Positions 3,171 to 60,700 of a stretch of DNA of 64,000 nucleotides are shown here, piece by piece. The notes under the pieces were generated by a model, which saw nothing but the letters and a program-made list of their open reading frames with translations, was not told the DNA's origin and did not search any database. This stretch comes from Owenia fusiformis (lineage: Eukaryota; Annelida; Polychaeta; Sabellida; Oweniidae): positions 12,713,375-12,777,374 of the forward strand of contig CAIIXF020000005.1 in the NCBI GenBank assembly GCA_903813345.2. The letters run 5' to 3'. A program made the position numbers and the translations under genes. Numbering within the stretch: position 1 is the stretch's first letter; every line of letters starts with the position of its first letter.

Positions 3171-3171
3171 T

Positions 3172-6295: not shown

Positions 6296-7768
6296 CACAC
6301 AGTGATAAATATCGCACTTTGAAGAGCAAACTGGCCACCATGCAATTTACCCAGCATGGCCAAAACCTAATCAGACCTTGGCACTAGTCTGCTCTTGCAT
6401 CTGTAAACATTTCAAGTTGACAAGGTTAGCGGTTTTCCTGCAATTTTGATGACAAGAATTTATTTGTAGTCTTGAACTTTGGGAAAAATTAGATAACATT
6501 GTTTGTGACCTAATTTGATGACCTTCGACCTTGAAAATTTCACTTTTTCAGACCTCAGTAGGTGTTTTGTAATTAAGCTGACCTAAATTTAAATCCAAAA
6601 TATCAATTTAGAAAATCAAATTTTTGACCTTGTCAAGGTCACTGAAGGTCAACGAAAGGTCAAATCTGAAATCTAAGGTCAGATTTGAACTTCTGAGAAC
6701 TTGTAGATGTTTTTAAGAAAAAAATTTGGTCAATTTGGAGCATGTTGAAAAATTCAAAATGGCCACCAAATTGAAAAATTCAAAATGGCCACCATGAAAT
6801 TCAGCCAGCATACCCAAAACCTAATCAGATCTTGGCAATAGTCTGCTCTTGCATCTGTAAAAATTTCAAGTTGAACGGATAAGTGGTTTTCCTGGAATTT
6901 TGATGACAAGATTTGTTGAAAAATTCAAAATGGCCACCACGTAGTTTACCCAGCATGCCCTTAACCTAATCAGATCTTGGCACTAGTCTGCTATTGCATG
7001 TGTAAAAATTTCAAGTTGAACAGGTTAGCGGTTTTCTTGGAATTTTGATGACAAGAATTGATTTGTAGTCTCAAACTTTGAGAAACTTGGATAACATCAT
7101 TTGTGACCTAGTTTAATGACCTTGACCTTAGACCTTGAAAATTTCACTTTTTCAGACCTCAGTAGGTGTTTTGTAATTAAGCTGACCTAAATTTAAATCC
7201 AAAATATCAATTCAGAAAATCAACTTTTTTGACCTTTTCAAGGTCACTGAAGGTGAATGAAAGGTCAAATCTGAAATCTAAGGTCAGATTTGAACTTCTG
7301 AGAACTTGTAGATGTTTTAAAAAAAAATTTGGTCAATTTGGAGCAAGTTGAAAAATTCAAAATGGCCGCCAAATTGAAAAATTTCAAAATGGCCACCATG
7401 TAATTCAGCCAGCATACCCAAAACCTAATCAGATCTTGGCAATAGACTGCTCTTGCATCTGTAAAAATTTCAAGTTGAACGGATAAGTGGTTTTCCTGGA
7501 ATTTTGATGACAAGATTTGTTGAAAAATTCAAAATGGCCACCACGTAGTTTACCCAGCATGCCCTTAACCTAATCAGATCTTGGTACTAGTCTGCTGTTA
7601 CATCTGTAAAAATTTCAAGTTGAACAGGTAAGCAGTTATCCTGGAAATTTGATGACAAGATTTGGTTTATGTCCCGCCCGCCCGCACGCCCGCACACCCG
7701 CCCGCCCGCCCGCCCAACAGCACAAGACGACGACAATATAGCACTTTTTCAAAGTGCGATAAAAAACT
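6296..7768. mobile_element. Helentron/HINE-like element, family B
   Basis: The left end carries TATCGCACTTTGAAG. The right end is the hairpin GCACTTTTTCAAAGTGCGATA, whose right arm is the complement of the left end. The interior is a dimer of a unit of about 602 bp (compare 6408 with 7011, and 6782 with 7384) rich in AAGGTCA and CAAAATGGCC repeats. A CCCGCCCGCACG microsatellite at 7674-7714 precedes the hairpin. Noncoding. Confidence 0.7.
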
Positions 7769-21695: not shown

Positions 21696-21778
21696 CTAAA
21701 GATGTCGCCACAGTGTTGATAATATTGTTGCTATAGTGATGATGATGCTTGATGGATGGAATATAGTACTTGATGAAA
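21696..21778 (-). CDS. CONT: Contactin exon 26: C-terminal hydrophobic tail and stop
   Basis: Encodes VSSSTIFHPSSIIITIATIL, then STLWRHL and TAG. A Ser-rich possible omega site, a short spacer and a hydrophobic stretch fit a GPI-attachment signal as in other contactins. The tail ends in basic WRHL and is modestly hydrophobic, so anchoring is inferred rather than certain. Confidence 0.85.
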
Positions 21779-24700
21779 CTGAAATACAAAAATATGTAAT
21801 GCAGTTAAAACGAACTTCTGAAATGAATGTTCAGAGTTGGCACTTGGTTGGTTGATTGTGAACAATTAACAAACAAACAAACAAATAGAAAATACAAAAG
21901 AAGATAAGATTTAAAGATTTTAATTCAAACTGAACTAAATAATTACGATCCATCAAAATATTTCATAGACAGCTGTAAGGAATACACTTGTAGAAAAGTA
22001 TGGAAAATGCTAAATTATTGCAAACAACAGTACATTTATATCTGTATTGTATGTGGAAAATTTCCCGATATTTTCTTTATGAATTTTCATTAAAAATAAT
22101 AATCTGAGATGGAATATATCATCTAATTATTGCCATTACTGTACTTCCTCTATTTTTTCGCAAGCTATTTCGCACAAACTTATGATACAGTCAGTACTAT
22201 AATTCTGGGGCAATAAATCTGCTTGCATAAAATTCAGAGTGTGCAATTCTACTGTGAGCACATTCAAGGGGATTCCTGCATGTCAGGATCCAAAATGATC
22301 CTCTTCATGACATTGAGTAGCCCTGAGCACTACACTGTACATTACTGAACCATTGTTTGTGCCATTAGGTGATATTTCACTGAACATTACTGAACCATTC
22401 CTTGTGCCATGGGGTGATATTTTCAAAACTTCATGGGCTTGAGGGTACATTAAGGCTACAAAGCATGAGGATGTAGAGAAAGGTGAAATTTCAACTTGTG
22501 AAATCCCCGAAACTTAATAGTAGCAACTGTGATTTTTCAAAATTCGCGAAAATTAATAGCGCCGAAACATACCAGGAGTACAGTATTTCAATCTATATTT
22601 ATAGTGGATCAACTCAATCTTACCCATTGAGAAAGTAATTTCTGGCCAACTCTTGGCCCCATCCCCTCCCCTACTGTAGCCTAATACACGCAGTATGTAT
22701 ATGACCTCTGGCTCCAGCTTGTGTATGCGAACCATAGTGTTTCTCCCTGCGTCAGCCTCCATTGCGTTCTTCATGGTCTCCCCCTGTTTCCAGTACACTA
22801 CCTGAAATAAGTTAAAGAAATTGTTATGATTGCATTCTTTATGGTCTACCCCTACACTACCTAAAATATGTAAAGAAATTGTTATGATTGCATAACTTCA
22901 TGGTTTTCCCCTTCACAACCTAAAATAAGTAAAGAAATTGTTATGATTGCATTACTTCATGGTTTTTCCCTGTTTCCAGTACACTACCTGAAATACATGT
23001 AGAAATTGTTCTGACAAATGACAATTGTTATTCGGGAGGCCAATTAGTATTAAATTTGATATACAATATATAGTACTGGGGTGGTAACAGAATTGTTCAA
23101 GGGTGACAAACTGTCTCAAACTTGTGTTCTTCAGTATCTGCAATGTGGGGGTGACAATACAGGCTCCTAAAGGGGCCTGCAGTGAGTGAAGTATTATTGA
23201 AATGAGAGATAGGTATGTATAAAAACTTTATTGTATTGTATTGTATATTAATATTGGGGATCCTAAATGGGGCCTGCAGAGAGTGAAGTATTATTCAACT
23301 GCATGTATAAATACCTTATATCCTTGTAAAGGTTCCTGTGTCTGGTCAGTAATGACTCCTCTCCATATCACCTCAATAGATGTAGTAGTCAGGGTTATAA
23401 CATTCACTTCTTCAGGAGCATTCACAGGGGCTGAATATAAATATAATAACAAAAACCTTATTCATGTTATCCAAATATGTTCTTGTTTTTTTTAATTTGT
23501 TATTGTTAATTGGGTGAAAATGGGTTTCATATAGTATTTTCTTTTGTAAAGGTGGAACACTAAACAGATTTTGCTGTTATTTAAAGTCCCCGTCTAGAGT
23601 TTGAAAATATTTTTTTTATCATTTATTTACTATTTGTCAGGATTGAACAAAAGACACACTATTTCAATAATCAAATGTCATATTTAATGGGCCACTTCAA
23701 TGTTTTAGCATATCAAAAATATTTTGAAACATTAGTGATGTCACTAAGGTAACAAAAACTTTTTGAAAAAAAATGAATTTTTTTTTTCGATGTCAATCTT
23801 TTCTAAATATGCTAGACTTTCATACAAGGCATTAACATGACAAAATGTCACCACCTAAAACAATTTGGTCAATTTAAAGCAAGTTGGAAAATACCTTTTG
23901 ACCTTGAGAAGGTCATTGAGGGTCAAAGGTCAAATCTAAAGTCAGATTTGAACTTCTGAGAACTTGTAAAGTCAAATTTGAACTTCTGAAAAGATGTAGA
24001 TGATTTTGAAAAAAAAATTTGGTCAATTTGAAGCAAGTTGAAAACAGACCTTTTTGACCTTTTTTGAACTTGAGAAGGTCATTAAAGGTCAAATGTCAAA
24101 TCTAAAGTCAGATTTGAATTTCTGAGAACATGTAGATGATTTTGAAAAAAAAAAAAATTAGTCAATTTGAAGCAAGTTGAAAAAAGACCTTTTTGACCTT
24201 TTTTGACCTTGAGAAGGTCATTGAAGGTCAAATGTCAAATCTAAAGTCATATTTGAATTTCTGAGAACATGTAGATGATTTTGAAAAAAAAATTTAGTCA
24301 ATTTGAAGCAAGATGAAAAAAGACCTTTTTGACCTTTTTTGACATTGAGAAGGTCATTGAAGGTCAAATGTCAAATCTAAAGTCAGATTTGAATTTCTGA
24401 GAACATGTAGATGATTTTGAAAAAAAATTTAGTCAATTTGAAGCAAGTTGAAAAAAGACCTTTTTGACCTTTTTTGACTTTGAGAAGGTCATTGAAGGTC
24501 AAATGTCAAATCTAAAGTCAGATTTGAATTTCTGAGAACATGTAGATGATTTTGAAAAAAAAATTTAGTCAATTTGAAGCAAGTTGAAAAAAGACCTTTT
24601 TGACCTTTTTTGACTTTGAGAAGGTCATTGAAGGTCAAATGTCAAATCTAAAGTCAGATTTGAATTTAGTCAATTTGAAGCAAGTTGAAAAAAGACCTTT

Positions 24701-27700
24701 TTGACTTTGAGAAGGTCATTGAAGGTCAAATGTCAAATCTAAAGTCAGATTTGAATTTCTGAGAACATGTAGATGATTTTGAAAATTTTTTTTAGTCAAT
24801 TTGAAGCAAGTTGAAAAAAGACCTTTTTGACCTTTTTTGACTTTGAGAAGGTCATTGAAGGTCAAATGTCAAATCTTAAGTCAAATCTTAAGTCAGATTT
24901 GAATTTCTGAGAACACGTAGATTATTTTGAAAATTTTTTTTAGTCAATTTGAAGAAGGGTTGAAAACAGACCTTTTTGACCTTTTTGACCTTGAGAAGGT
25001 CATTGAAGGTCAAATGTCAAATCTTAAGTCAGATTTGAATTTCTGAGAACACGTAGATGATTTTGAAAAAAAAATTTAGTCAATTTGAAGCAAGTTGAAA
25101 ACAGACCTTTTTGACCTTGAGAAGGTCATTGAAGGTCAAATGTCAAATCTAAAGTCAGATTTGAAGGTCAAATGTCAAATCTAAAGTCAAATCTAAAGTC
25201 AGATTTGAATTTCTGAGAACATGTAGATGATTTTGAAAAAAAATTTAGTCAATGTGAAGCAAGTTGAAAAAAGACCTTTTTGACCTTGAGAAGGTCATTG
25301 AAGGTCAAATGTCAAATCTAAAGTCTGATTTGAACTTCTGAGAACATGTAGATGATTTAGAAAAAAATCGAAGTCAGTCTAAACAGTATTTGTTAAGTTA
25401 TAGGAAGTTGTAAGAAATTGTTACAGACGCCGGACGCCGGACGCCAACCTCCAACCACCAACCTCCAACCACCAACCGCCGTCGCGAAAAAACTGAGACC
25501 ATAACAATATGTCACCACTTTTGGTGGTGACATAAAAAAACCAATGTTGATTGTCTAACCAGGTTAAAAGGAAGAATAAATTATGTTTTAGATATCATTG
25601 TACCATTGGTTTCTATGAGAACTAAAATTTTGAAATGCATTTTTCTCAGAACCATTTTCATGCACTGATAAGTTCATTTCTCGCTTGTTTATCAACCGAT
25701 TTTCTTAATTTTTTCGGCAAAAAACATGGGAGGATGTATGCTATGCATTGGTATGAATTGTGGCTAATTAGAAGATATTAATGACCTCTAAAAGTTGGTT
25801 TTAAATAAATTCACAAATTTTGGAACAAAAAGTCTATCAAAAAACACTTTTTGAAATTAAAAAAAAAGTTTCACATATCACACTTTGATAACATTGGGTA
25901 AGACTACAATATAAGCCAAAGTGGTTTAAACTTTACATGGGGCCTTTAAAGGAGAAACTGATACTAATTTTACCTATAATATAGCTCTCATGAATAATTA
26001 AAATCACTCATGAACAACAATCTAATCATAAAATGGTGTTCAACACTTTATACCAAATAGCCATTTGGATATAAATGTGCAATCGGGAAACAGTACAAAT
26101 ATTAGTTGCGGTAATGCTAACAATTCATTAAGTATCGGGAATTCCAGCAAGATGGAAAATATAACATTCAACCAAAGTTCAGTCACATTCATTAACAATG
26201 ATGAAAATATTAGCTTAAATGTCACAAATATTTCACAGTCAAAAAACACAACCAATAGCGATGAGGACAACTGGTTGAAAGTCTTTCAATTTGTACTGGA
26301 CAAAGTGTTATCATATATTGTAATAGGACTTGGACTTGTTGGGAATACATTGGCATTCTTGGTGCTTTCAAAGGAGAAAGTTTTGAACACAAGAGTATTT
26401 CTTCTAAAGACACTAGCCATAACAGAATCAACATTTCTGTTACTGATGCTTCCTTTAGTAATGCTCTATAATCACCAGAAAGAGTTTATAAAGTTGGGAG
26501 CTGTTGATGACCACATTGCCACATTTCTATATAATGTACAGCTACCAATTGTTTCAATAGCATCTACTCTCACATTTTGGATGGTTGTCTTAGTAACCGT
26601 TGACAGGTACATACATATAACAAACCCACTCCGTGCAACGACATTGCTAACCGTCAAAAGAATGAAATGGACGGTTGGATGCCTTATAGTTGGAGCATGT
26701 CTCTACAATATACCAAGATTCTTTGAAAGGTCTGGTGCTATTTGCTTATTACATTGTAATCCAAGCTATCGCATTATATATCATGTGATTTTAAATGCAG
26801 TTTTTAGATCCTGTGGACCTGTTGTAACAGTTTTTATCCTTAATGTAAGGCTAGTTCAGTCCATCTTAAGCTCTCAATCTAAACGTAAGGAACTGACTAA
26901 CAAAGAAATTGAGGAAAGAAATCATGTCATTACCATGATTGCAATCGTGTCATTATTTATTATATGTTCAATAACCCATATTATAACCAACATAATGATG
27001 ATGCTGATTTACAACCATGTCATTCCATTCCCCAATTTTTACTCTTTATTGGTGTCATTCTCAAATTTTTTTCTCATGTGTAATTCAGCGTTTAATTTTG
27101 TAATATACTTCATGATAGGAAAATCCTTTAGGAAAAGGTTAAAACAATTAATTATGAGGAAAAGAACAACAGGTCTAGAATAACAAATTATTAACATTTA
27201 TTATTACCACCTTGCCGGGCCAGTTCTAGGGGTTTTAGTGCTAGTTTAGAAGGCATTTATTTTACTATATCGACCTGAGAAATGTGTGACGTCATAGCGG
27301 TGGCCCATATGGACCGTTCTAGAATATATTCCGGACCGGCAAATTTTCCCCGGTAAATTAGATATCGTTCAGTGCATAAGATTTTCTTGCTTTTTCAGCC
27401 CTGGTCGTTAACGGTGGTAATAATACTAATAATAACGTCATTTCTGCGAGCAATATAGTGAAATATAGGACCTTGGGCCTTCAGCCCTCGGTCCAATATT
27501 TCACTATATTGCCCTTAGAAATGACGTTATTGTACTATTGTACTTGTATATGAAATACCATTATAGGCTGACCTTTCCTCATAACGCACTATTTAGACAT
27601 ATATTATTTTTACATTTTCAAACAACTGAGAAAATTATCAGGCTAATGCTTTATAAAGTTTTTTTCTGCAAAATATCAAAGCACAGCCATTGAGTAAAAA

Positions 27701-30700
27701 AAAGGAGCACGATGCTGGATTCAAACAACAGTCGACAGGCATTTTCAAAAATATGCAAGTTTATTATACAGATTTGCAAGATTATCATGGATTTTAAAAA
27801 TATACAAGATTATTATGCAGTTTGAAAATGTGCAAGTCTATTATGCAGATTCGCAAGATTATCATGGATTTTAAAATATATAAGAGTACAAGACTACAGT
27901 ATTATTCACAACTCGACTCACAAGACTGTATTGTGCGGTTTGAAAATATACATGACTTATATGCAGATTCGCAAGATTACTGTACATTTTGAAAATATAC
28001 ATGACTAATGGAGATTCGCAAGATTATTGTGCCATTAAGAATATGCAAGTCTATTATGCAGATTCGCAAGACCATTGTGCCAAGTCTATTATGCAAATTC
28101 GCAAGATTTTCATGCAGTTAGAAAATATGTATATAGTCTATATGCTTTGATATATTTCATTAAAGTCTATTTTAATATGTTTTTCTGATGTTTTGTGCAA
28201 GGTAATAAAATTGTATCAAATGTACATTTTGAACAGATTAATGTTTGAAATAACTACATGTACTTTTAATTTCAATAAAGGCATATAAATTATAACCGAT
28301 GAAACAGATAAAATTGTTATTAATCATTCCTCAATTCCTATTTCAAGCAGATCAAACACATCTTCAGATCATTGCCAACTATTCGTTGAACTGTTCCATA
28401 CCCCATGTTGTATACTCATCAAACTTTATTCATTGGAATAAATAGAACTAGCATCTTACCACTTCTTAAAGTCCTCTGGGGAAAGTCTTCACTCTTTGGG
28501 CTGTTCCCTGCGGAATTAAATGCCATCACATTGACAACGTAGAAAGTATTAGGGTTAAGTCCTATAATAAAACCACTGTCAACCTTCCCATTTACAGTCT
28601 GTCTGATACCCAACTCTTCTGTCTCGATGTCCCTCTTCCAGTATGTAATCTGTAAAATCAGAATGATTTAACAATATTATGTCAAAAATAATTGAATCCT
28701 TGTCAAAAGTTTTTGTTTACAATTTACATAAATGGCACCCTTATTTACCAGATCCCTTCTTATTTACACCCTAAGAAAGTCCCAATAAGGTAACTCAGTG
28801 ATCTCCCTAGCAGGCTTGCACCTACATGTATCTGAAAATCCATTTGCACCCACTTAAAAATGAGAATAATCATGAAAATTGACATATGACCAATTTCTGT
28901 CAGAATTGTGAAAATGAGAACTTTGCACCCACCTGAGAAAAAATCCTGGGGAGAACATTGTAACTACCTGTATCTCAACACGTCGGGGGGGGGGGGTGAG
29001 GCAATAGGTACAAGTAAAGATTAACATGGCAGGTATATTAGAAAGTTCCCTTAAACTTGAATATTCATCAGTTCTAGTGTAGGCTAAGTGGACCAATTTT
29101 CATGATATTTATACAAATGAAAAAATGTCCAGTATAGGAAAACATTATCTGTCCAATAAAAGGTATTTCACTTTTTGTGATTTTATAACATGGGGTGTAT
29201 GGGGATTCTCTCTGACGTAATAGTCACATTTTCAGAGAAAATTAAGTTTTCAAAGTTGATAAACAATTTTTGATTTTGCATGTAGATTTCAAACATGATA
29301 TCACTTTGACTGAATTTTGAATATTTAATGATGTAAATCAAGATTATTTCTATTCCCATCTAGTCTATTTATATCGAATCACAGATCTTTTGGGAGATGT
29401 TGTATTTGATATTATAAGAAATAGTTTGGTAGTGCAATTGTACATGTTGCTTGCACACTGTTCCACAACTGGAAGACTCTAACTGCAGTTAGCTTCATTC
29501 AAGATGGTTGCCGAAATTCTTTGTTTTTGACAAACATCCGAAATCAAAAGTTTAGCCATGCAAACTGATGAAATAAAAAAAAACAAATCGAAAGAAATTT
29601 GGCAACCATCTTGAATGAAGCTAGCTGCAGTTAAGAGTCATCCAGCAGTGTTGCAATTGTGTCACGATCACCCCAATAGATCTGATTCTTTTACAAGCTA
29701 TTACAGGTACTGAAATTCCGATATTCATTCTAGTTTATGGAAAAATATCATTACCAGGCTCATAAAAGCAGTTATTAACAAATTGCTTCATGCAATTGGT
29801 TTTAGTTTTATTTCCCAAATGAATCATATACTACATTTATTTTCTGACAAATAATTAGAGAGAGTGTTGATTACAGGTGTATGTTTATTGTTTATTCTAT
29901 TCCTTGCATGGTGACTCCACAAAATCACATTTGTATTTCAAAAGATGATAATGACTATGCGACTAGCATCATGTTATTTCACAGGTATTTAAGATCAAAA
30001 GTGAATTTTGGAGCAAATGTTATGTAACTTTCCTGTAACATTCCTGTTTGATGAGCTAGTCTGTAACAAAATTCATGGGACATTGAGTAATGGATTTGTG
30101 TTTTTAATCAACCCCCAAAGTAATGAATTTGTGCTTTTAATCAACCCCCAAAAGTAATGGATTTGTGTTTTTAATCAACTCCCAAAGTAATGGATTTGTG
30201 CTTTTAATCAACCCCTGAAAGTAATTCTACTTGGGTAATAAACCGTGGAATTAATTATTCCAATCTTTTCATGGGTAAAGCCAGGATATAAAATCAAAAG
30301 GCATATAACATAGAATGATAATGTAATACTACCATAAGACATCATTTTCACATTTCAATTGAGAAAATATCTGCATTAATATTTTTCTATTAAATGTTGG
30401 CAAGGCAGGAGCTTACCTTGTATTCATATAAAGGCCCCTTGGTTGTATTTCAAGCCTGACTTTGCCCATGCTTACCCTGTATTCATATAAACACCCCCTG
30501 GCTGTATTTCAAGCCTGACTTTGCCCACGCTTACCCTGTATTCATATAAACACCCCCTGGTAGTATTTCAAGCCTGACTTTGCCCATGCTTACCCTGTAT
30601 TCATATAAACGTGCTCTGGTTGTATTTCAAGCCTGACTTTGCCCATACTTACCCTGTATTCAGATAAAAGCCGCTGGTCGTATTTCATGCCACACTAGTC

Positions 30701-33700
30701 CATACTTACCCTGTATTCATATAAACGCCCCCTGGCTGTATTTCAAGCCTGACTTTAACCATGCTTACCCTGTATTCATATAAACGCCCCCTGGTTGCAT
30801 TTCAAGCCTGACTTTGCCAATGCTTACTCTGTATTCATATAAACACCGCCTGGCTGTATTTCAAACCTGACTTTGCCCATGCTTACCCTGTATTCATATA
30901 AATGCCCCCTGGTTGTATTTCATGTCTGACTTTGCCCATGCTTACCCTGTATTCATATAAACGCCCCCTAGTTGCATTTCAAGCCTGACTTTGCCAATGC
31001 TTACTCTGTATTCATATAAACACCGCCTGGCTGTATTTCAAACCTGACTTTGCCCATGCTTACCCTGTATTCATATAAATGCCCCCTGGTTGTATTTCAA
31101 GCCTGACTTTACCCATGCTTACCCTGTATTCATATAAACGTGCTCTGGTTGTATTTCAAGCCTGACTTTGCCCATACTTACCCTGTATTCAGATAAAAGC
31201 CGCTGGTCGTATTTCATGCCACACTATGTCCATACTTACCCTGTATTCATATAAATGCCCCCTGGTTGTATTTCAAGCCTGACTTTGCCCATGCTTACCC
31301 TGTGTTCATATAAATGCCCCCTGGTAGTATTTCAAGCCTGACTTTGCCCATGCTTACCCTGTATTCATATAAACGTGCTCTGGTTGTATTTCAAGCCTGA
31401 CTTTGCGCATACTTACCCTGTATTCAGATAAAAGCCGCTGGTCGTATTTCATGCCACACTATGTCCATGCTTACCCTGTATTCATATAAATGCCCCCTGG
31501 TTGTATTTCAAGCCTGACTTTGCCCATGCTTACCCTGTATTCATATAAACGTGCTCAGGTTGTATTTTAAGCCTGACTTTGCCCATACTTACCCTGTATT
31601 CAGATAAAAGCCGCTGGTCGTATTTCATGCCACACTATGTCCATACTTACCCTGTATTCATATAAATGCCCCCTGGTAGTATTTCAAGCCTGACTTTGCC
31701 CATGCTTAACCTGTATTCATATAAAAGCCCCCTGGTTGTATTTCATGTCTGACTTTGCCCATACTTACCCTGTATTCATATAAATGCCCCCTGGTAGTAT
31801 TTCAAGCCTGACTTTGCCCATGCTTACCCTGTATTCATATAAACGTGCTCTGGTTGTATTTCAAGCCTGACTTTGCCCATACTTACCCTGTATTCATATA
31901 AATGCCCCCTGGTTGTATTTCAAGCCTGACTTTGCCCATGCTTACCCTGTATTCATATAAATGCCCCCTGGTTGTATTTCATGCCTGACTTTGCCCACGC
32001 TTACCCTGTATCCATATAAAAAAAACCTGGCTGTATTTCAAGTCTGACTTTGCCCACGCTTACTCTGTATTCATATAAATGCCCCTTGGTTGTATTTCAA
32101 GCCTGACTTTGCCCACGCTTACCCTGTATTCATATAAACACCCCATGGCTGTATTTCAAGCCTGACTTTGCCCATGCTTACCCTGTATTCATATAAATGC
32201 CCCTTGGTTGTATTTCAAGCCTGACTTTGCCCATGCTTACCCTGTATTCATATAAAAGCTGCTGGTCGTATTTCATGCCACACTATGTCCATACTTACCC
32301 TGTATTCATATAAACACCCCCTGGTTGTATTTCATGTCTGACTTTGCCTATGCTTACCCTGTGTTCACATAAAAGCCCGACTTTGCCCATACTTACCCTG
32401 TATTCAGATAAAAGCCGCTGGTCGTATTTCATGCCACACTATGTCCATACTTACCCTGTATTCATATAAATGCCCCCTGGTAGTATTTCAAGCCACACTA
32501 GTCCATACTTACCCTGTATTCATATAAACGCCCCCTGGTTGTATCTCAAGCCTGACTTTGCCCACGCTTACCCTGTATTCATATAAACGCCCCCTGGCTG
32601 TATTTCAAGCCTGACTTTGACCATGCTTACCCTGTATTCATATAAAAGCCCCCTGGTTGTATTTCTTGTCTGACTTTGCCCATGCTTACCCTGTGTTCAT
32701 ATAAAAGCCCCCTGGTTGTATTTCATGTCTGACTTTGCCCATGCTTACCCTGTGTTCATATAAAAGCCCCCTGGTTGCATTTCATGTCTGACTTTGCCCA
32801 TGCTTACCCTGTATTCATATAAAAGCCCCCTGGTTGTATTTCATGTCTGACTTTGCCCATGCTTACCCTGTGTTCATATAAAAGCCCCCTGGTTGCATTT
32901 CAAGCCTGACTTTACCCATGCTTACCCTGTATTCATATAAATGTGCTCTGGTTGTATTTTATGTCTGACTTTGCCCATACTTACCCTGTATTCAGATAAA
33001 AGCCGCTGGTCGTATTTCATGCCACACTATGTCCATACTTACCCTGTATTCATATAAAAGCCCCCTGGTTGTATTTCAAGCCTGACTTTGCCCACGCTTA
33101 CCCTGTGTTTATATAAAAGCCCCCTTGTTGCATGTCCAATTATGCCCATGCTTACCCTGTATCCATATAAAAGGCCCCTTGTTGTCTCTCTGCCTTCCTC
33201 TATTTTATCCCAAGAGACTAGCAATGCTGTAGCATTGTACTGCTGGGCTCTCACATTGGTTGGCTGTCTCAGAGGAACTGAAAAAGGAAATACAATATTA
33301 ATGGCACAAACGTACTAATTTCAACAAATCATTTCAAAACAATGTAGCATTGTACTTTGTAATTACATTGCACCTAACATTGGCTAGCTGCCTCATGAGA
33401 ATGGAAAGCAAAAACTAATTTTACAATATATGCAATAATCTCATTATTTTCTACGGAATAAATTAGTAACAGTTTTACCATTGATCTAATGCACCATGAA
33501 ACCCTTATGAACAAACCCATTAAAACTTTTACGGCATTTCATTGAAGTATTAATAATATAATGGAGGTCACCAACGAATAGGTTTGAAAAAATGAGTAAA
33601 TGAAGGACTGTTACAACCGAAGATCGACTTACTATTCTCTGCACTCATGATCGTCTTGATTTCAGATGTAGGGCCAAGTCCTACATTGTTCATGGTTTGG

Positions 33701-36700
33701 ACCATAACTTCATAAGGTTTCCAGAAATTGTCCTCACCAACAGTATACACATACTGACTGTGTTGCCCGCCGATTAGCTCTCGCTGAAATGAATTGAATA
33801 TGGGTTCAAGAAAAAAAACCATCTGAAAAGATGTATGAAAACAAAAATAAAAACTTTCTAATCTGAACACAACTGTGGTCAGCAAAATTCATTTTGGTGA
33901 TACCTTTGCTATTAGATCTTTAAGTTAATACCAATATTTCAAACACATATTTTTTTTTTCATTATATATTTATTTCTTCATTATATATTTGTTTTATACT
34001 ACATTGATTTATTTTGGCGATACCTTTGCTATTAGATCTTTAAGATTAGCAGGTGTATACATTTCTTAATATGTCAGAATAAACTGGAGAATATAAAATT
34101 GGGACCCAGTATTTGTATTTTGATCTACTGGTTTCACTGCATTAAACTTAGTTCACGAACAAAACCTAGACCAGTATGAAATAACACATCCTCCAGATGC
34201 AGGGATTCAGTCGAAATCCACTCTGAATGATGAGTGGATGTCTGGAACCCTGCCTTTGGAGAATGCAAACAACAGGACATTAGGAGATTTTAACAAGGCA
34301 TTAACACACAAAATATCACCACTTGCCATTTGTTACAGACTCCAAATGCTGAATGCCGGACACAAACCGCCAAACACTGTCCACACACAAAAAAGTTAGA
34401 ATTACTATGACATTATGTTACCACTTGTGGTGGTTATTTGAAAATCATAATACAGTGAAACCTGTACAGTTGAACACATGCAGAAGTGGAACACATCTGT
34501 TAGTGGAACGCTTTTCAGCATCCCAAGACCAACTAACTTAATGTTAAATGAACCTCTACAAGTGGAATATCTCCCAAGTGGAACAGTTTGTAGAGAGGTT
34601 TTACTTTAAGTCAACAGCTATATTTTTTGTGTTTTACCTTGATCCAATCTTTGTCCGACTGTCCAGGTTCTCTCCATTGCACAATATAACCAAACCCTTG
34701 GCCATTGTGGAAGACTTCAGGTACAGACTAGGGTAAAGAATATAAAAAATGAGAGTAACTAGTATGCCACTAGACATATAAAAATTGTAATATCTTCACC
34801 ATATTTAATGATACATACATCTTATACTAAAGTGTTAATATTAGCAGGGTTGGCCAAAAAGTTTTCCATTGAGGGAATTTCTCTCTTGAGGAAATTTCTC
34901 CTTTGAGATCCCTACATAGATGAAATAGTTATTAAAGCAGCAACAAGGACTGCCGAGTTGTATCCAGTGATCCTGGGCCTAGCTATTTCCAGGTCTAAAT
35001 TTGAAAACTTTTATAAATGGGGATTGTATAAAATTAGGACTTCTAAACGATTTGTCAGTTCTACTAGTTGCAGAATTTGGCCACATCCATACATTTTTAT
35101 AAAATAGGAATAAGGAAGAAGATGTTTACCATACGCCGCCCTGATAGCTCAGAAAAGGTAATATTTGTCCATTTTTCTCTAAATGGTCCTTGTTACCTCT
35201 TTAACTATTAACTTAAGTCCCTAACAGATGCTAGTCTCTCTCCAGTAAAAAAGCTAATATGTTTGTGTACTTACATCCCAAGTGATGGTGAGATCTCCCA
35301 CTTTGCCCCCACCCCCTCCTACATTGCCCGCTGGGACAGTTGGCACAGCCTCATTGGTTGTGTACTCCGCTAGAATTAATATACATATTGGTAAGTTCTC
35401 ATGTACATTTAAGAATGTGACTGAACACAGTCCAAAACATATAATAACACATTCCAATATTTTAGTTGAAATTTCAGATATCAAAAATATGATTGGAGCA
35501 TATAATTATATGCATCCTTCAAATGTTTACCTGAGACCCCAAAATGCCCTAATGTGGAGAGGGTCCATAATTCAACACACATTATTGTTTCAGGGGGTGA
35601 AACTTTGACACCATACTTCTTCGCACAAGAAATATGGAATTCTGATATGAATTTTGACTTTTGATAAGCTGTTATTGCTACCAGGATGGGTAACTTGCCT
35701 AAATCAACTGCTCCCAGGATAGGGAATCTGACGGCCCGATTTTTATTTTGTCAAAATCCCCACCCCTTCCCATGTTGGAGGTCTCAAGTAAACCTTTGAA
35801 TGCTGGCAGTACATGTATATATGTGAACAGATGAAGGGAAATAGCACTAAATACAGACAGAATAGACATGCATTAATAGGTTTTTAAGCGCCCAATTTTT
35901 TATAAAACATATGCTTTTAAGCTTGGAGTTAATAGTCTATTTTGTTGACTTACGTGATGGAACACTGGAGGGACCAGTTCCAAGGTCATTCTCAGCTCGA
36001 ACCCTGAATCTATATGAACTCCATGGAGAGAGGTTAGTTAAATATGTATAGGGTCGCTCTGTATTAGATCCTATTCCCAGTGGTTTAATATCTGCAATAA
36101 ATAAATATATTTATAAATTGTCTAACAATGTACATGTACAACAGTTACAGTGAATAATGAATAAATAGTCATGAAAGAAAAACAAGATAAAAAGAGAAAC
36201 AATTAAAATGCAGGAGATGCAGAAATGGAGTGCAATAATGCGTCTATTTTATATTGTGTATTTTGTCCTAATATGGAGTTTTTGACTTCCACACAATGCT
36301 TTTTCAAACAAAAAATTATACCTGTTATCATATGTAGTAATGTACATAAAATGGTGTTACTGATTAACAAACGAGGCATTAACACACAAAATGTCACCAC
36401 TGGCCATTGGTTACAGACACCAAACACCGACTGCCGAATGCTGAACACTAACCGCCAATGCCACAAAAATGTTGGAGACTAACAATATGTCACCACTTCT
36501 GGTGGTGATACAAAAAACGAATGTGTTCTGAAAATATTAAGTGGTTCATCCTGGCATTCACGAAACACATACTTGTCTTCATGACAGCCCAGTAGCCAAT
36601 GTGGCGATTAAAGCCTTCCATGACGTAGGTGGTTACAGGACGCCCAAATCCAGCACCAGGTTGCCATCGTAATCTCATGCTTGTGTTGGTTATCTGATCA

Positions 36701-48700: not shown

Positions 48701-51700
48701 AAAAGGAAGAATAAATTATGTTTTAGATATCATTGTACCATTGGTTTCTATGAGAACTAAAATTTTGAAATGCATTTTTCTCAGAACCATTTTCATGCAC
48801 TGATAAGTTCATTTCTCGCTTGTTTATCAACCGATTTTCTTAATTTTTTCGGCAAAAAACATGGGAGGATGAATGCTATGCATTGGTATGAATTGTGGCT
48901 AATTAGAAGATATGAGTGACCTCTAAAAGTTGGTTTTAAATAAATTCACAAATTTTGGAACAAAAAGTCTATCAAAAACCACTTTTTGAAATTTAAAAAA
49001 AAAGTTTCACATATCACACTTTGATAACATTGGGTAAGACTACAATATAAGCCAAAGTGGTTTAAACTTTACACGGGGCCTTTAAGGATGTTCCCTGGAC
49101 GAAGTTGAAAACGATGAACACCAACCCCTAATTTTTCTTTTCGAAATGTGAAGTACTTAGCATAACTAAGTGTTTCTGTGAGTTTAAGAAAAAGTTAAAT
49201 ATTCAAAAGTGTGTTTTGGGGTGAAAACCTGATTTTTAACATGGGTTTCAATGAGAAAGTGCCACGCCCACTTTTGTCAAATATTGACACTTTAGAGGCC
49301 TCTTGCTCAGAAAAAAGCACACTAACATATGGTTTTTAAAGTTTTAATATTCTTTGTTGCCCGTGAGAATCCCAGAAAACCATTTTTGAGAAAAAGTTAA
49401 ATACTATTGAATATTTTCCTATCTGACCAGGGAACATCCTTAAGTGCATCTGAACAATCAGAATGGTCTTGAATGACACTAATCAGACAATAGACTATTC
49501 TGCACTTAGTTACCCTATAAACTGGGATCCCAATTGTTCAAAATATCGATGGGTGATAATAGACTCAATATACATATCAAATAGCCCCAAGTACTGCTTT
49601 TTGACATATTTGACCTCTACATTTATTTTCTATTCAAAATCCCAGAGCGAAGAGCTCTTGAGTGTTGTTCAAACATATTGGTTTCCATTGAGATTCCTCA
49701 TTATGAATTTACAGGTAAAACCCCTTTAAGCTTCACTGATCAGGGTGTGCAGGGTTACATTCCTTATATGGTCATGAGCCCCTTATATGGCAAAGAGCCA
49801 TGTTGTATGTATTACCACTATACTTTGCATCTATATGTCAGAAAATTTCTATAGAGACCTATCATTAGTCTAGAAATGGTAAATATTAAAGTTCATTAAT
49901 TATAATTAAATTTTTAATGCATTAAAAGCAAAAATTTATTGACTAAGAATACCTAAATTTTTGGAGACTATGTACAAAAAGGTAACTTTGACTGACACTC
50001 GCCAAATTCTGGGTGCATCCAGGTGCAACTGGGGGCAAGGTTATTCTTGCACTCTCATCTTGGTGTAGTGTCAAATAGAATGCATAGATATCAAGAAGAA
50101 TCCATAGAGCTCCTCAGATCAGGGGTATCAAGATACATAAAGACGAAGGAACATAGATCTTTGTTACATCGATGCCCCTCTCTGTCAATGTGACTCGATA
50201 CAATGTAAAAATGAGATAATTGAGAATATTAAGCCTCCGTCCAATCAAACATAATATATTTCCCTCTCATGGAAGCCTCCGCCTTATTGGTCCACAGGAA
50301 TGTTTGAAAGATCATAATGAAGAAACCTGATACCCACACTATCACATTCCATTCTATTGTAATTCTAGACCCTTTCCATAGCAACCCTCTCAATTATCAC
50401 AATTCATCTCCATACCAACCATGAAACTCATTAACCTATTAATAGGTCAATGACCATGTACTGTATCAATGACCAATTTTTTATACCCGAATATTGTACA
50501 ATTGTTCAAAATTACAGAATGGTTACATATTAGAGGCCAAGAGTATTGTAATATGATACTCTCAGAGAGATATTGCAAATGTGTGGAATGTAGTAATATC
50601 CACGATGCAATTTGCAAAATTGCAAGTATTACACTAAGCTGCTGAATGTCATAATGCTAAAATTAATAGATTTTTCTTGGAATTTGAGATTCTGATAAAG
50701 TAAATGCCCTTTTTTACAGAAATGAAAAAATAGATTAAGTTTCACACTTCCAGAAAAATGTAAATGAAAATTTGAGAAATATTACATCATGATTTCAACA
50801 AAATATTTCGATTTTGAACCGTATTGATTTTACATGCAAATATCCTAATAAATTTTGAAATAAATTACCTTTTCATCAATTCCTTATTATAACCAGAACA
50901 ACGGCAACGCCAAAGCGTAGCGAATCCCATCGAACATTTTTCAAAACGGGCACCTTCTACCAAAAGTGTCATTAGACAGTGTGCCATGCTTATACGTATT
51001 CCAAATATGAACAAAATCGCTCCACTACTTTTCGAGTTATAGTAAAATACGTTAAAATGGCGGCCATTTTGAAAAATGACCGCCCTCTACCAAAAGTGTC
51101 ATTAGACAGTGTGCCATGCTTATACGTATTCACATACCAAATATGAACAAAATCGCTCCACTACTTTTCGAGTTTTAGTAAAATAAGTTAAAATGGCAGC
51201 CATTTTTCAAAATGTCCGCCATTTTTCAAAATGGCCGCCTTCTACCAAAAGTGTCATTAGACAGTGTGCCATGCTTATAGTATTCACATACCAAATATGA
51301 ACAAAATCGCTCCAATACTTTTCGAGTTACAGCAAAAATCGTAAAATAATGAGTAAAGGCAGCCATTTTTCAAGATGGCTGCCATGTGCTTTTTTAATAT
51401 CTACATTTCTAGCTTTATTAATGTCCTATATAATTTTTTTACATTTTAAACATATTGCTATTACAGTTTTACATATTGCACCTAAATTACTGTAAAATCG
51501 GCACTAAAATGGCCGCCATTTTTAAATGAGCGGCCATTTTGAAAATCGGCTTTCGAGCAGAACTTCTACCCCCATAGGGTATATGTGTACAAAATATGAA
51601 TAAAATCAGGCTAACGGTATTTGAGTTATTGCCCGGACAGACGGACGGACGGACGGACGTACGTACGGACGGACGGACGGACGGACGGAGGCGTTCCCTA

Positions 51701-54700
51701 TATCCCTCCGAACTTCGTTCGATGGGATAATAATCATGAATATTCAAGAAAATGAATATAATGAGTTTGTCCACAGGGCAAGAGCATCCATTATTAATAG
51801 TTGGGTCAATTTGTGGGACGTACCCATCTGGTGGAGAGTCCCACTTGTAAAATCATAATGAGGTAATTTGATACCAGCCCAAGAGCACCTCCAATCCATC
51901 ATCAATATAATATCCTCTAGTTCAATACTATAAGTGCTTGTAAAATCATAATGAGCGAATCTGATACCATCTAAATTAATTTTGGGTCACTATCAATGAC
52001 CTTTCCATTCATCCTTAATGTGTCAAGTGTCCTAAACACCCTCAAATCCAATAATTTCATCTATTGAGAAAACCTATGTAAAATCATAAGTAGGTAACCC
52101 GAGATCTCCTTAATTAATTTTTGGTCACTCGAGAAATAGAATTCTAAAGATCTTAAGATATTGTAAAGAATGGGCCACGCCCTTATTTCCAATTCATTTA
52201 TTCTGGTTAGCTTTGAGGCCCATTTACTGTGATACCTCTTCCCCCCTGCAAGGACTGAGTATTGATAGATGCATTCCAAAGCTGTCGTCCTATTATAATT
52301 TCTATAGAATTAATAATAACAGATCTATAAATTAACACCACATCGCTTCTGACCATACAAACTCTTTGAATAGTCCCAGTATCTTTTCATGTTACAATGG
52401 GTAGCTAAAGGTCACTAGAATGTATTTCAAAGGACTTCCTTAGTGAAATACCTTATATGGGCATGTGTCATCACATACAATGTTATAGATTTATGCCACC
52501 TAGCACTGAATGACCCAAATGATTGATCCATGAAAACACTTGTAAAATCATAATGAGGAAACCTAACACCTCTTGGATTGCATCTCTATACTTATTCAAA
52601 GGCATTCAATACCTACACAGTACAGTAAAACCTGTCTCATCCAAACAGCATAAAGACAAGCCACAAGTGTTCAGATTGGCAGGTCAGGCACGTAGCCAGG
52701 ATTTGCCAAGGGGGGGGGGTTAAGTTTTCAAAAATTTCCAGGGGGGGTTCACATTTGACAATTAAGGCCCAAATATGGCTAAAATCACTTGAGAAGTGCT
52801 CAAAATGGTGAAAAACTGCATGATTTTGAAAGAATTTTTGGCCGGGGGGGGGGGGGGGGGGGGTTCGCCCGAACCATGCGAACCCCCCCTGGCTACGGGC
52901 CTGCAGGTATCTGCATTTTGATATTCTTAAAATGGAAGCCAATCATTGATGGAAAAGTACACTTCTTGGATATTAAGCAAATTAGTACTTTTTTACCTCA
53001 GGAGAACAGGCCTACATACATTTGCATTTTATAGAACATTGGCATTCATTTTAATTGAAAGACAAGGACACTTTAACATAAAATTGCAGTTGTAAAGCAT
53101 TTTTTACTGTTTGGGCCTGTAAACTATATATTACAAAAACATTCATTGAATGAAATAAAATACAAACTCTAACATGTGCTTATCGCATTAATATGTCTTA
53201 CATCCTTAGTTATTGCGTGAAAATGAACGCAGATGGCACATAGTAAATTTTTAATAAAATCTTGCATGACACAATACAATTAATTTAAATACATAATAAG
53301 ATGATATATGTGACAATGTATTATGCCAATGAAAATCTATAATTGTTGAAGAACATATCATCATGAAAGAAATGAATGCAGTCCGTATTACTACACAGAT
53401 GGCAAAAAGGGCACAGAGTACAGTCTATCATCGATCATGCAAATAATCTAGTGACACGCAAGGAAGACTTGAGTGCTTAATATCAGTGGAGATCTATACA
53501 TTCCAGCAGCATTGATTTCCTGCCAGATGAAAAAAACAAGCGGCCATGTTTGCAAAATCATAATGAGCTAATTTGTTTGCTTTTCTGTACCACTTGGTTT
53601 TTAAGTCTCCTCCACGTTGAACCAATCCAAGGTATGAAGTTTCTATGGTTGAAAATGAACAAGTATGGAACCAATAGGCCTTTTCAATAAATCCTGACCC
53701 CTTTTGGTAAGCCAAAGAAACTGGTTATAATGATCAATAATTAATGATGGTTCATATTTTTTTTACATTTTATGCAGATATTTATAGATCATTGTAAAAT
53801 ACAAAGTGCAAAATCAAAATATTTTGATTATGGGATTGATACCGTATTTCCCCAATTTTTGTAACATTTGGAACTGTTAACTGTGCAAAAAAGGACAGAT
53901 GCAATGTCATGATGCCAAGGCTATAGATACCACAAGTAAGATTGTAGGATCTACACTTTCACAAGCTTTAGATAAAGAGAGACTCTGATAAATCATAATT
54001 ACTGAAAATAATTAAAATAAAAACTTAATAACAACAAATTGTAAATCAATCAATCAACCTCCAAAATGTAGGACTCTACACATCATCCTCTCTCTCTGCA
54101 AGCAAGAAGATATACGGAGACCTACATTTGGAGACTGCATCAGTCAATTCAGGGAAATGCAAAGAGACCAATCACAGGAAAGAATCAGCACAGAATTATT
54201 CCTAAAAAGCTTGAAAAATCATAATGAGATATCTGAATAGACCCTAATTTGTTTGCCATGTACTTGAGAGTGGATTCAAATGGAAGAAAACAAGCTCAAA
54301 ACACAATGGAAAGCTTTCCAATTTCGATACACCCCTGTATAAAATTATATATTTTCGCGCTGTTTTTCGCATTGAAATCACTTTGTTGCACCATTCTGCA
54401 TCGCCTGTATGTTATGTCGCACTTGTATGTTTATGTTACCATGGTGATAACAGTCAAAGGCTAAATAGTGAATTCTACTTGTACTTTGTAAATATACATG
54501 GGAAAAATCATCATTGTCTCCTTTCATATAAATAGTAGAGTACTCTATTCACACAGCAAGGTTGTTCAATACAATTTATTTATATATTTTCATAGGGCAT
54601 TAAGTACACTAAGATGTCAATTGTGGTGAAAAGTACTAAATCCCCATGGCAAACAGAAATTCTGACCAATCACAACATGCCCGATTTCGTTGAAAAATCA

Positions 54701-57700
54701 TAATGAGGAAAGCTGTGAAAATTTGATATGTTTATTCAGCACTTAACTGTTCACTAGTGTAGAAATTCACAATGAATCACACATGAGTGAATGAACGTGC
54801 GATGAAAAGAAGCTGAATAGAACGCAGAGTTGAAAGGCATGGATAGGAAATTCAATGGCAATTTATCATTTGTAATGCGGTTGCAGTCTTATTTGACTGA
54901 TTTATTCATTTTATTTATTTTCAAATTTAAATTGCATGTAATTTAGTGGATTTCAATGCTAGAAATAATATTTGGAGTATAGTTTTTTCATTGTAAAACA
55001 CCCACATAAATTGAGCCAAAATGTACATTAAATATTTAGGATATTTAAAATATGAATTCTATTACAAGCATTTAAAAGAGAGACACTGAAAAAACAGAAA
55101 GATATTTTCTGAAAAGAAAGAAATGTAACAACAGGAGTTGGTTTTCAGGATGCAACAGAAAAACTCATAAATCTCTATGAGGCTAGTTATCTGACAGATG
55201 TATCTGCATAATGAGTAGATAAGAGCACTAAGTAAACATTGGAAACAAACAGATCACACGCCTGCTTCTCTCTCTCATCTAGAAACAAATTATCAAAGCT
55301 AGCCACATGCCTTCACACTAGCCTACTGTAAATCAGAGATATGGGAAATCAGAGTAGTATCAGAGAACCAAGTAAAATATTGGAAGATGAAGCTCTCCTT
55401 TAGAGGAAGAAAAACTATTACAAAAGTAGAATTTCAGGATGGTGAGGGGGGTTAATCTTACACATACACCTTATAATCTGTCTTCGAGTTTTCATGATTA
55501 TTTCTTATCAAAATATATTATATCTATTTTTTATATCTATCATATTTGCATTCATAACCTACTATTGTATTTTACCATTGTAACCATCAAGGCCAATAAT
55601 ACTTCGGTGTAGGCCCTGTATTTATTTGTAGAATGGAATTATGAATAAATAAAACATTAACTAAAAAAACTGAATAATTTTTCACATGAGCAATCATGCC
55701 CAGAATTCCAAAATCACAATTACCCTTTTTATTCACTCAGGATACCACTAGTGATTCAGAATACATGAACAAATCATAAATAAAGGGGACCAGAAATTAT
55801 TACCAATGAAGTTCAGATTTAGCTCCCTATTTTTGGTCTGCTCCTTGGTGACTTCAGTCAGTGCAAAGCACGAGAGTTGAAAGGCAATACTTTCTTACCA
55901 CTTTCTTTTGTAGAAACAGTCAAAAAAAGTCAAATGTTAATTTTTTTTCATTCTAGAAAAACACTTTATTGAAATTTGAGTCTATTGAAAACCTACCCTT
56001 TGCATTCGTTTGACTTCACTTCTTAAAAGAGAGCTTCGTCTTCACTCTTTCAAACTAAAATAAACCTGTGAACTCACCGCGCCAATCAGTGTTTGTCGGC
56101 AAAATTTGACCGACGTTCTATATATGGTAATTCCTTCTGACATCATCGTTGAGCCCAATGACATGCGCCTATTTAATTAGAACGCTTTTGGCGTATGTTT
56201 CTTCAAGCTCGCTGATTGGTGGAAGAAAGGTCAGCGCGTAGGTCAAAAGCTTCTAAACTGTAATATGGTCTCTACTAGGCAGAGTGTAGTTTAACTAGAC
56301 TCTGCACGCAGGGTATTGAAAACCAGGACCCTCCATGTGTGAAATCTGTCAAGTGCTAAATTCTCAGATTACCCAGAAACCCCAGCTGCTCCAAACTCAT
56401 TTTACTTATCTTGCTTGCATCTGCATAATGACTGATAAGAAGGAAAAAATCAACAACAGCAGCTATTCCCAAAAGAAAAATGTCATCCAGGTCACATTTT
56501 TGAAATGTAAAATATTGTGAAAAGAGTGGAATCAGCAAGGAATAAAGTAAATAGGCATGTAGTCAATATTCTAAATCATATAGAAATTTAAGAATATCAG
56601 ATCCTTTATTCAAATTTTAGAGAGGAATGTAGAGAACTTAACATGGTGACCAATGGGAAATCTTTGGCACGGAAAGGTAACTACTAAATAGTGTCGAATA
56701 ACTAAGGCATTCATGGTTGGGAGTAGGCTACAAAAACAAGATTTCCAAACATGGAAAAATCTAAAATAGAAAGCCAATTTGGGTAAGATTTGGTTATCTG
56801 GATAATTGGGGTTACTGAATGCCAACAATTAATTGCAATAATTCTATTTTGTAACTTAACTTGTAAATATCCATGTAAAAATGTGAAAATTGAGAAGCAA
56901 AAATACATGAGAAGTTAGAAAAACTGAATATTCCGGATTTTGCTGGTAAGATCAGATCTAAATAACCTAAAAGCTATTTTGATTGGATATGGTTTACCAT
57001 AAGCTGATTTGGTAAGACAAGGTCAAAGGATTATCTCAAAACCATAAGCATCCATGAAGACCTAAAGACCAAAATCCACAATCTATTTCCACATTTCGTA
57101 AGCAACCATTAAAGATTTGGGAATGTTTTGAAACTTGTGGTTTGCTTATTTTGTTTTTTGCTTATCTTTTACTTGTATCTGCATAATGAGGTGATAAGAG
57201 CAGAAAAATCAACAGCACACATGTCTATACTTATGACTATCTAGTACCTTATCCCTCACATACAATACCAGGGGTTAATTTTTGTGAACAGAAAAGTGCA
57301 GGGGGTCATCTTTTTTAAGAAATTTATCTGTTTGTAAAAAGGGCCTCAAGTTTTTAAAAATTGCACCATTTGGTGGGCTCACATGGTGATTCCTTACACT
57401 AAATTTTGTGATATTTTGACCTTTCATGACGTTTCATTTTCAAATAGTAAGCCTGGTTTTTCAACAAGATGCACAGTGACAAATTACACACTTTTTTCCT
57501 TGTTGCACCAAAACAGCACTGGCTGCAAGATCATAATGAGACACCTGCTGTGAAACTGTTAACACCTAACTGGAAAGCACTGAGAAGTGCAAATCACCAT
57601 GAACTTTCCAAGATGTTCCCCTGTTTCTTGTTAAGTCTTTGATTTCTGATACTACACAGCCAGTAATATTCAGTATTTTAAATCTAAATACAATTTATTT

Positions 57701-60700
57701 CCAGCATAGGATAAAAATAATATCACATACTTGGCAATTTAAACTCTTGAAAGTAAATGAATACTCCATTATTATCACACATCCTAAATTGAGTAAAGAA
57801 TTACCTATACAGTGACATCTATAAATGACTATTGAAATCTATTTCACAGATGAACACAATCATAGTCGAAGATGCTGAGCTCTGAGTGAAGAGTCAAATG
57901 TACACTCAATAAAACCTGGACAAAAATTTGGCTACTCCAGAGAATGGACTATACAGATATTAAATATATGTTTCAAGGTATTGAAGCTTTTACTCCATCA
58001 GTAGAAATGTATCACTGAAATTTCTCCAGGGACAGATCTTAGTTCAAAATAAGTTTGTCGAGCTAGAAACCCTGTGACCCTCCTCCCCCTACTTGACAAC
58101 ACACCTTTACACTCTTGTGGGGAGGTGTGTAGTGGGGGATCACAAGGGCCTGTAGCTAGACTAAAAATAAGTTTAAAATGGCACTTACCATCCCAAGCAT
58201 ACATGATATTGTCTGGCGTTGGCTTCTCTTTTTCTGTATCATCCTTCCAAGCCTCGAATCTCTGAATATCTGTGCCATCCCCCTCCCAATAATACTGCCA
58301 GGGACGTGAAGGATTACGGCGCCCACTTGTGTACCAGCGTTGCCTGTATCATAAACATACTTTTTTTTGATGTAGACAGACAAGAAAAGTGAGTCACTGG
58401 CAATGTTAGCAAACAGGTTGACAATAATGTAAATTTTTTTTAGAGATTCAAAACAAAACTTGTTCACTGGTTAACATATAGCCTTGCCCAAGTCGGTCTC
58501 TTATACTATCTGATTTCTATTATGACCGCCTTGTACCAAAGAGAAAGCCACGTGCTTTACCGACTCAATGTTTATGTCGGTAAAATTTGACCAATCAACG
58601 ACGGCCCTGCAGCGTTAGCTCATTATTATGCATGGTCAAAAACAAGTACACTTTTCGTCTGGACTTTTCACGAACAAATCTTGCATGAATTCATCATGAA
58701 AATACAAATATTTTATCAGATAAATATCAATCAGAGTTAAGTGGATGCCAGACATCGATCGGTAACCGGAGGTTAGAAGATTTCAACAATAAACGTTGAA
58801 ACGATCGCTGAATTCAAATGAACATGTAGGCTGAGATTCAATCACTGATCGACGACTACATGACCCGCTACATTGGACTAGGACTAAGGTCTTGCATTTT
58901 CATCGCGAGATCAGTTTTAAATCTATTGCATGATTTAATTTAGATTAATGACTCTTACATTCCCTATGTACATTTAATTACATAATATATTGTAACTCTA
59001 AAGAAACGATCGATCAGATCATTGAATTTCAAGTCGTAGACGGGAAGATTGTTTTGCTGTGCAGCTCAACCTGATAACGTTTTGATTGGTCAATAAGCCT
59101 GAAGTCACACGTCGTGTCCACGCGTATATCTGTTAATCGATAAGGTTTCGCGATACCCCTGATAGCGTAGGTATTATGGAAATCTCGAAACCGTTGAATA
59201 TCTCAGCATAATAGCAGCGGAGATGTATTGGATTGTACAAGGCGGTAATAATTCAAGATCAGATAAGTAAAAAATACCGACTTGGGCAAGGCTAGTTAAC
59301 ATAAATAACTGTGATAATTTACCTGCCAGGTCCAGGGTCGATAGTATTGAACGTCTGCTCCACAAACCCATGTTCCCCATTGTCATTGACACTCAACAAA
59401 GTGGCTCCATTGTCCTGTAAGTAGAGAAACAAGGCATGAACATGCAAAATGTCACCACCCACCATTTGTTACAGATGCCGAAAGCCAGCTCTGAATGCCA
59501 AACACCAACCACAAAAAGGTTGGAGACTATAACAATATATCATTATTATCTCATATTATGATAGTGTGTTTGTATGGATTTTAAAAGGTCTAACCATAAA
59601 TTATGTAGTTCCCTGAATATTTCTACTAAATATGAAACTATAGACATTGATATGGGTTAAACCATAGGGACTAGATCAACAATACTACTACTGCCATCTT
59701 TCTGTTAGGCATAAGATTCATTGAATCCAGATGGATCAAAGTATCTATTACTTTTTTGGTACAGCTTGCCAAAGTTTCATCCCCTTTATAAAACTGATAA
59801 AATGTTTGAGCTCAGGACTAAATGGAAATGTGTTATGCACATGATGATTCAAACACATCTATCTCTACTAGAACTCCATGAAAATCTGACAGTGTATGTT
59901 ATACCATATAGGTTTCGAGAGAACACCATACAGTTTTGGCATCACAGATAACATGGTCTCAACACATAACAATCTAACTTACACTACATGATATTTTGGC
60001 ACCAGCCAGGTCAGAGTAAAGGAGCCTCTGGAAATGTGTCAGTGTATGTTTATAACATGGGTTTTCAAGAGAACACCATACATTTTTTGGTATAACGCAA
60101 AACATGGTCTCAACAAAATCTAACTTACACTACATGATATTTTGGCACCAGCCAGGTCAGAGTAAGGGAACCTCTGGAAATGTGTCAGTGTATGTTTATA
60201 ACATGGGTTTTCAAGAGAACACAATACATTTTTTGGTATAACGCAAAACATGGCCTCAACAAAATCTAACTTACACTACATGATATTTTGGCACCAGCCA
60301 GGTCAGAGTAAGGGAACCTCTGGAACCTATAGCACCTGTCCAAGTATTCCCGCCATCCAGGGGGACAATCTAAAACACAAGCAGAAATTGGGTGAAAAAC
60401 ACTCAAAAAAAATTATGTCTATCTATATTTAAAAATGAACAAAACTGATTGGGTTATAATTTTTTTAATTTAGAAAAGAAATACATAAAAGCATTTCAGC
60501 CTGTTCTGTTTCATTTACAATAATTTTGCACTGATTAGAGTTTTTATTCATTTTGTTCTGTATAGCATTTATTCATTTTGTATTGCCTGTAGTTTCTATT
60601 TGTTTTGCCCATCATATTTTTGTTTTGACTATAGCTTTTATTTGTTTTGCCTGTTGTTTTTAATTGTTTTGACTGTAGTTTTTATTTGTTTTGACTGTAG

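Follow-up and report, generated by a model that had tools for sequence, protein, structure and literature searches.

Tandem arrays over splice borders of contactin and myosin genes in the annelid Owenia fusiformis resemble lancelet mirages

A contactin gene of Owenia fusiformis carries four minisatellite-like arrays that each lie over an exon-intron border, and arrays of the same kind are present in a paralogous contactin gene and in three of seven myosin loci. We think it probable that these arrays are mirages, i.e. border segments that were duplicated in tandem and grew into the intron while splicing remained unaffected. All four arrays are located within a single minus-strand gene of the window, the analyzed stretch of 64,000 nucleotides (C5:12713375-12777374 of assembly G000). 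They cover splice borders of exons 2, 12, 22 and 25, precisely as the preliminary description had placed and numbered them, and its assignment of two arrays to donors (A and C) and two to acceptors (B and D) was likewise confirmed.

The gene was modeled as a splice-scored chain of exons, in which a few borders were then corrected. The coding part comprises 26 exons (21696..61577, minus strand; C-type lectin, Ig and FN3 domains), and its translation is identical to the deposited O. fusiformis contactin P0001 at 1231 of 1231 residues. Pfam detected Ig and FN3 domains as well as a C-type lectin match of borderline strength, and the solved proteins that it matches best are contactins. Intron 23 also houses a single-frame rhodopsin-type GPCR (7tm_1) on the opposite strand (26032-27183, plus), and the same dispersed sequence of ~200 bp occurs in this intron (25591-25777) and in intron 4 (48726-48945).

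Array A (59882..60325, minus strand; TRF and copy alignment) consists of three copies of a 146-bp unit over the donor of exon 2 (60275..60369, minus; donor AGT/GTAAGT, the slash marking the border). The unit combines the last 50 nt of exon 2 with 96 nt of the intron, which yields decoy donors with the G of GT at 60128 and 59982. Array B (41263..42227 according to TRF, minus; copy alignment) contains seven copies of a 162-bp unit, made up of 91 nt of the intron and the first 71 nt of exon 12 (41172..41334, minus), over the acceptor of this exon. The authentic copy and four others show no difference over 162 bp, a further one is slightly diverged, and the last, residing beyond the TRF end in older sequence with approximate limits of 42228..42420 (minus; copy alignment), is strongly diverged. 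The first exonic bases of its decoy acceptors are at 41496, 41658, 41820, 41982 and 42144, and that of the older one is at 42278. Array C (30411..33185, minus; copy alignment) comprises 48 copies of a 59-bp unit over the donor of exon 22 (33156..33277, minus; donor AGG/GTAAGC), in which the end of the exon is joined to intron sequence. Its copies are spaced by 39-59 bp and therefore none was skipped. In array D (22787..22971 according to TRF, extending to ~23015 with an older copy; minus; copy alignment), four copies of a 59-bp unit lie over the acceptor of exon 25 (22624..22801, minus). This unit holds the end of the intron and about the first 33 nt of the exon, and decoy acceptors are at 22860, 22919 and 22987. 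Across the window, the units thus include approximately the last 30-50 or the first 33-71 nt of an exon. The arrays had been described as differing in unit length and in age. Differing lengths hold for 146, 162 and 59 bp, but C and D share the last of these; the difference in age stands, as five copies of B are identical whereas mean pairwise identity in C is 83%. For comparison, two arrays with 136-bp units are purely intronic and contain no junction (intron 23, 23967..25334, and intron 4, 50956..51339; both minus; TRF). A resemblance between unit ends (microhomology) was judged by eye and dropped as ambiguous.

The exonic parts of the units in B, C and D align to contactin-2, in the case of C to the FN3 segment GLLYGYR, and the exonic part of the A unit resembles the contactin paralogue. 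Since these parts encode conserved protein, the exons seeded the arrays and not the reverse. In an alignment with the paralogue, the introns at the four array borders (introns 2, 11, 22 and 24) occupy the same column and have the same phase. In total, 20 of the 25 introns match a paralogue position, intron 1 falling outside the comparison because mapping of the paralogue began at residue 30. The introns at the array borders are therefore older than the arrays, which arose at existing introns. Two related systems were considered. Intron gain by tandem duplication likewise involves copies carrying splice motifs, but in Owenia no new intron position was found, all four introns being at paralogue positions. 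Tandem exon duplication with mutually exclusive splicing also leaves coding copies inside a gene, but the window units hold an exon edge with one splice site and not whole exons. The copies in A and B are less diverged from the authentic copy in their exonic part; we did not read this as selection on the copies, as the authentic exon alone is constrained.

In all four arrays, P0001 matches splicing at the copy that adjoins the exon body, which is evidence at the protein level. The published Owenia annotation, to which P0001 may belong, is reported to have used RNA-seq hints (PMC9977687). Use of a decoy would be followed by a stop codon in 2/2 cases for A, 2/6 for B, 46/47 for C and 3/3 for D, leaving the frame open for four decoys in B (54 aa per unit) and the first decoy of C, which would lengthen exon 22 by 54 nt (18 aa). 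The arrays may have originated when a short segment over an exon-intron border was duplicated in tandem via slippage or unequal exchange, after which the array would have expanded into the intron. As the extra copies come to lie on the intron side, one intact edge would stay attached to the exon body, which would leave the protein as it was. Splicing would ignore the decoys because exon definition prefers the site closest across the exon, as has been reported for genes with large introns (PMC9225289). This preference would explain why the 47 decoy donors downstream of exon 22, most of which equal or surpass the authentic one, are ignored. The intron-borne copies would be homogenized and slowly decay. 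In Owenia, such duplications have been frequent and apparently independent events.

The preliminary description knew of no named class for such arrays, which proved wrong: they fit the mirages of lancelets (PMC3087553, PMC3902484). The term denotes minisatellite-like duplications of intron-exon borders reported in lancelet globins and Adh3, and regular splicing of the globin mirages is reported from RT-PCR (PMC3087553). TnC was added to this class, and PGBD5 was likened to it by its authors (PMC3902484). As reported for the mirages in lancelet Adh3, the globins BflGb6 and BflGb9, and TnC, 5' or 3' exon-intron borders are duplicated in tandem in Owenia, and both types are affected (two donors, two acceptors). 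The lancelet mirages are described as retaining AG or GT in many but not all copies. The same is seen here, as 57 of the 58 window decoys and 112 of the 118 decoys found in 13 arrays (two contactin genes and three myosin loci) retain GT or AG; the latter count used a mismatch limit that misses diverged copies and recovers 46 of the 47 decoys in C. Units of 10-160 bp are given for the Adh3 and globin mirages (PMC3087553). Length instability between alleles or somatic cells is a further property ascribed to mirages; the Owenia arrays are known from one assembly. The Owenia arrays differ from them in the annelid host, the presence of four in one gene, copy numbers of up to 48, and recurrence in a paralogue and in myosins. 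A literature search in a limited paper collection found the term applied to lancelets only; the present arrays would put mirages in another phylum, where they are seemingly common. Internal tandem repeats (minisatellites) at exon-intron boundaries are also described in human segmental duplications. Those repeats reportedly give rise to new introns and to alternative splicing (PMC2812944), whereas in Owenia the paralogue has introns at the same positions and the deposited contactin is normal. Minisatellites of an earthworm metallothionein gene are described as lying in an intron, and in the text available not as spanning a border (PMC12783039).

Next to an origin as mirages, we considered coincidence, meaning that a repeat-rich genome drops arrays everywhere and that some fall on splice borders which are in no way special. 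At a threshold of period >=20 and score >=50, the window gene has 11 arrays, four of which hold a junction. When seeds of unit length were placed at random, 0.89 such arrays were expected (P = 0.007), and with arrays collapsed and exon-interior seeds excluded the expectation was 1.04-1.23 (P = 0.012-0.023). When whole arrays were placed instead, 3.08 were expected (P = 0.36), which speaks for coincidence. The seed null suits array growth better, as arrays grow from a seed and their final length should not count. By either null, the P values for the window gene are post hoc, as the gene was picked for its pattern; a fairer test is offered by the paralogue and the myosin loci. Counted per base, there was no excess: only four of 50 junctions lie within repeats, although arrays make up 16.9% of this gene, and junction windows had a nearby copy less often (4/50) than did 1500 random gene positions (17.5-25%, depending on the threshold).

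Homology served to retrieve the paralogue P0002 (C5:8927401-8945300, loci L023 and L024), whose repeats were not known beforehand. Three of its six arrays straddle a border, namely the acceptor of exon 20, the donor of exon 23 and the acceptor of exon 25 (the first mapped exon being exon 2). A fourth array begins at the donor of exon 12, and its units resemble the end of that exon. Here too, nearby copies were rarer at junction windows (3/50) than at random gene positions (18%). In addition, seven myosin clusters (55,407 bases) were picked for compactness from 92 PF00063 matches before their repeats were looked at. Relative to their approximate exon edges (132, of which 126 entered the nulls), five of 17 arrays straddle an edge, in three of the seven loci: one donor each in L025 and L028, and one donor and two acceptors in L030. 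Within L030, border arrays apparently lie at both ends of one myosin intron (2190-3989; 7 donor and 12 acceptor copies). Elsewhere, at G000:C9:37986009-37994334, twelve tandem matches cover approximately the same segment of the myosin motor (positions 18-84), as would be expected of a mutually exclusive exon array. Altogether, 13 border arrays were found (12 by the strict rule) in the two contactin genes and three of seven myosin loci.

In the paralogue and myosins taken together, 8 (strict) or 9 of 23 arrays straddle a border, where the seed null expects 2.9-3.7 (P = 0.0004-0.015). Omitting L030 leaves 5-6 (P = 0.006-0.09), and the myosins alone exceed the seed null more weakly (P = 0.026-0.076). 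Under the whole-array null, calculated for both contactin genes only, there is no excess (7-8 observed, 6.5-6.6 expected). We also inspected 22 loci picked by coordinate (220 kb), in which 3/46 predicted junctions lie in arrays, about as predicted by an array coverage of 7.8%, the exon predictions being unconfirmed. The predictor was crude, had been trained on the two contactin genes and gave 23 exons; as two of the three edges derive from one putative exon inside an array, this junction test was set aside as too weak. Coincidence would thus draw on the array coverage of the window gene and of these 22 loci, on the lack of an excess at the latter, and on a Poisson mean of 0.9 per gene, by which about 1% of genes would carry at least four such arrays. 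Against it, more arrays straddle borders than the seed nulls predict, both in the window gene and in the paralogue and, less clearly, in the myosins; we regard coincidence as a minority possibility. For the window gene taken alone, the claim that chance placement is unlikely is ambiguous; that of a recurring process is supported, as the paralogue and three of the myosin loci contain arrays of the same kind in modest excess over random seeds. In this genome, the excess is perhaps 2-3 fold; we consider it likely, but it is modest and varies with the null chosen.

Such an excess could also point to a process directed at junctions, by which border DNA would be duplicated more often, for example through breaks tied to co-transcriptional R-loops or through short proto-splice repeats. 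This would be compatible with an origin as mirages and would add a cause to it. It is backed by the ~2-3 fold excess in those samples whose choice took no account of repeats and by the position of window intron 22, where both paralogues have a donor array with different units (59 bp in C, 26 bp at exon 23 of P0002). However, with four of 50 borders occupied in each of two genes, a single coincidence of position would be no surprise, and a bias in the retention of arrays, rather than in their generation, could yield an equal excess. We therefore rate a junction-directed process as possible but doubtful. Whether by slippage, R-loops or selection of decoys, the border-acting mechanism that the preliminary description put forward is suggested but stays a hypothesis, as the excess depends on the null. 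If such a process operated, very many arrays of this kind would be expected genome-wide, by extrapolation from 13 arrays in 9 loci.

The decoys might themselves be under selection, as extra donors could recruit U1 snRNP and thereby aid the exon or block premature polyadenylation in a long intron. Binding of U1 downstream of a donor is reported to aid an exon (PMC5933811), and suppression of intronic polyadenylation by U1 has been described (PMC3826338). In array C, GT is kept in 46 of 47 decoys, and 16 decoys outscore the authentic donor in a simple matrix (15 with AGG/GTAAGT and one with AAG/GTAAGC). Using a tree inferred from the non-donor columns, we obtained 0.44 inferred changes per column for the nine donor columns versus 2.33 outside the donor (P = 0.0003 for random draws of nine columns; 2 of 59 for contiguous windows). 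However, the block of low change extends 12 bases past the donor core into the former exon, and singleton changes gave no clear difference (of 33 across the 59 columns, 2 are at the nine donor positions). Moreover, 5 of the 35 decoys found in the paralogue have lost GT or AG, which accounts for five of all six losses. The lower variation of the decoy donors in C is suggestive of constraint, but unequal mutation or conversion would fit as well, and we consider selection on decoys improbable. A broader proposal, that Owenia splice borders are preferred birthplaces of minisatellites and that some decoys, such as the 47 mostly strong ones after exon 22, are kept for helping splicing, is speculative and in our view rather unlikely.

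An assembly artefact is very improbable. One lancelet mirage is reported to have been aberrantly assembled in a genome draft (PMC3087553), but the published Owenia assembly (505.8 Mb; possibly the same as G000, 498.3 Mb) is described as built from PacBio reads with an N50 of ~26-31 kb and polished with short reads (PMC9977687). This N50 exceeds the length of any array reported here, and the copies in array C differ from one another.

Should an origin as mirages hold genome-wide, mirages would recur in an annelid and would not be a lancelet oddity, and they may represent a general route of splice-border duplication. They would then offer, in a living species, duplicated splice sites on which intron gain and exon extension could be studied, as well as a system for asking how the spliceosome settles on one donor among 48 that are alike. 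Whether borders seed repeats is testable with one annotated assembly.

Outside the contactin gene, the window contains an open frame of 908 aa (12353-15079, plus) that consists largely of coding repeats of 87 bp and 54 bp and had no homologue at E 1e-10 among the candidates scored. A repeat block at 6289-7766 includes a 145-bp tandem that recurs in two of the 22 coordinate-picked loci (L012 and L008). Finally, contactin-like matches at G000:C260:992-8261 seemingly continue past exon borders of the window gene; this sequence appears to be either a third, intron-poorer contactin copy or a contaminant.
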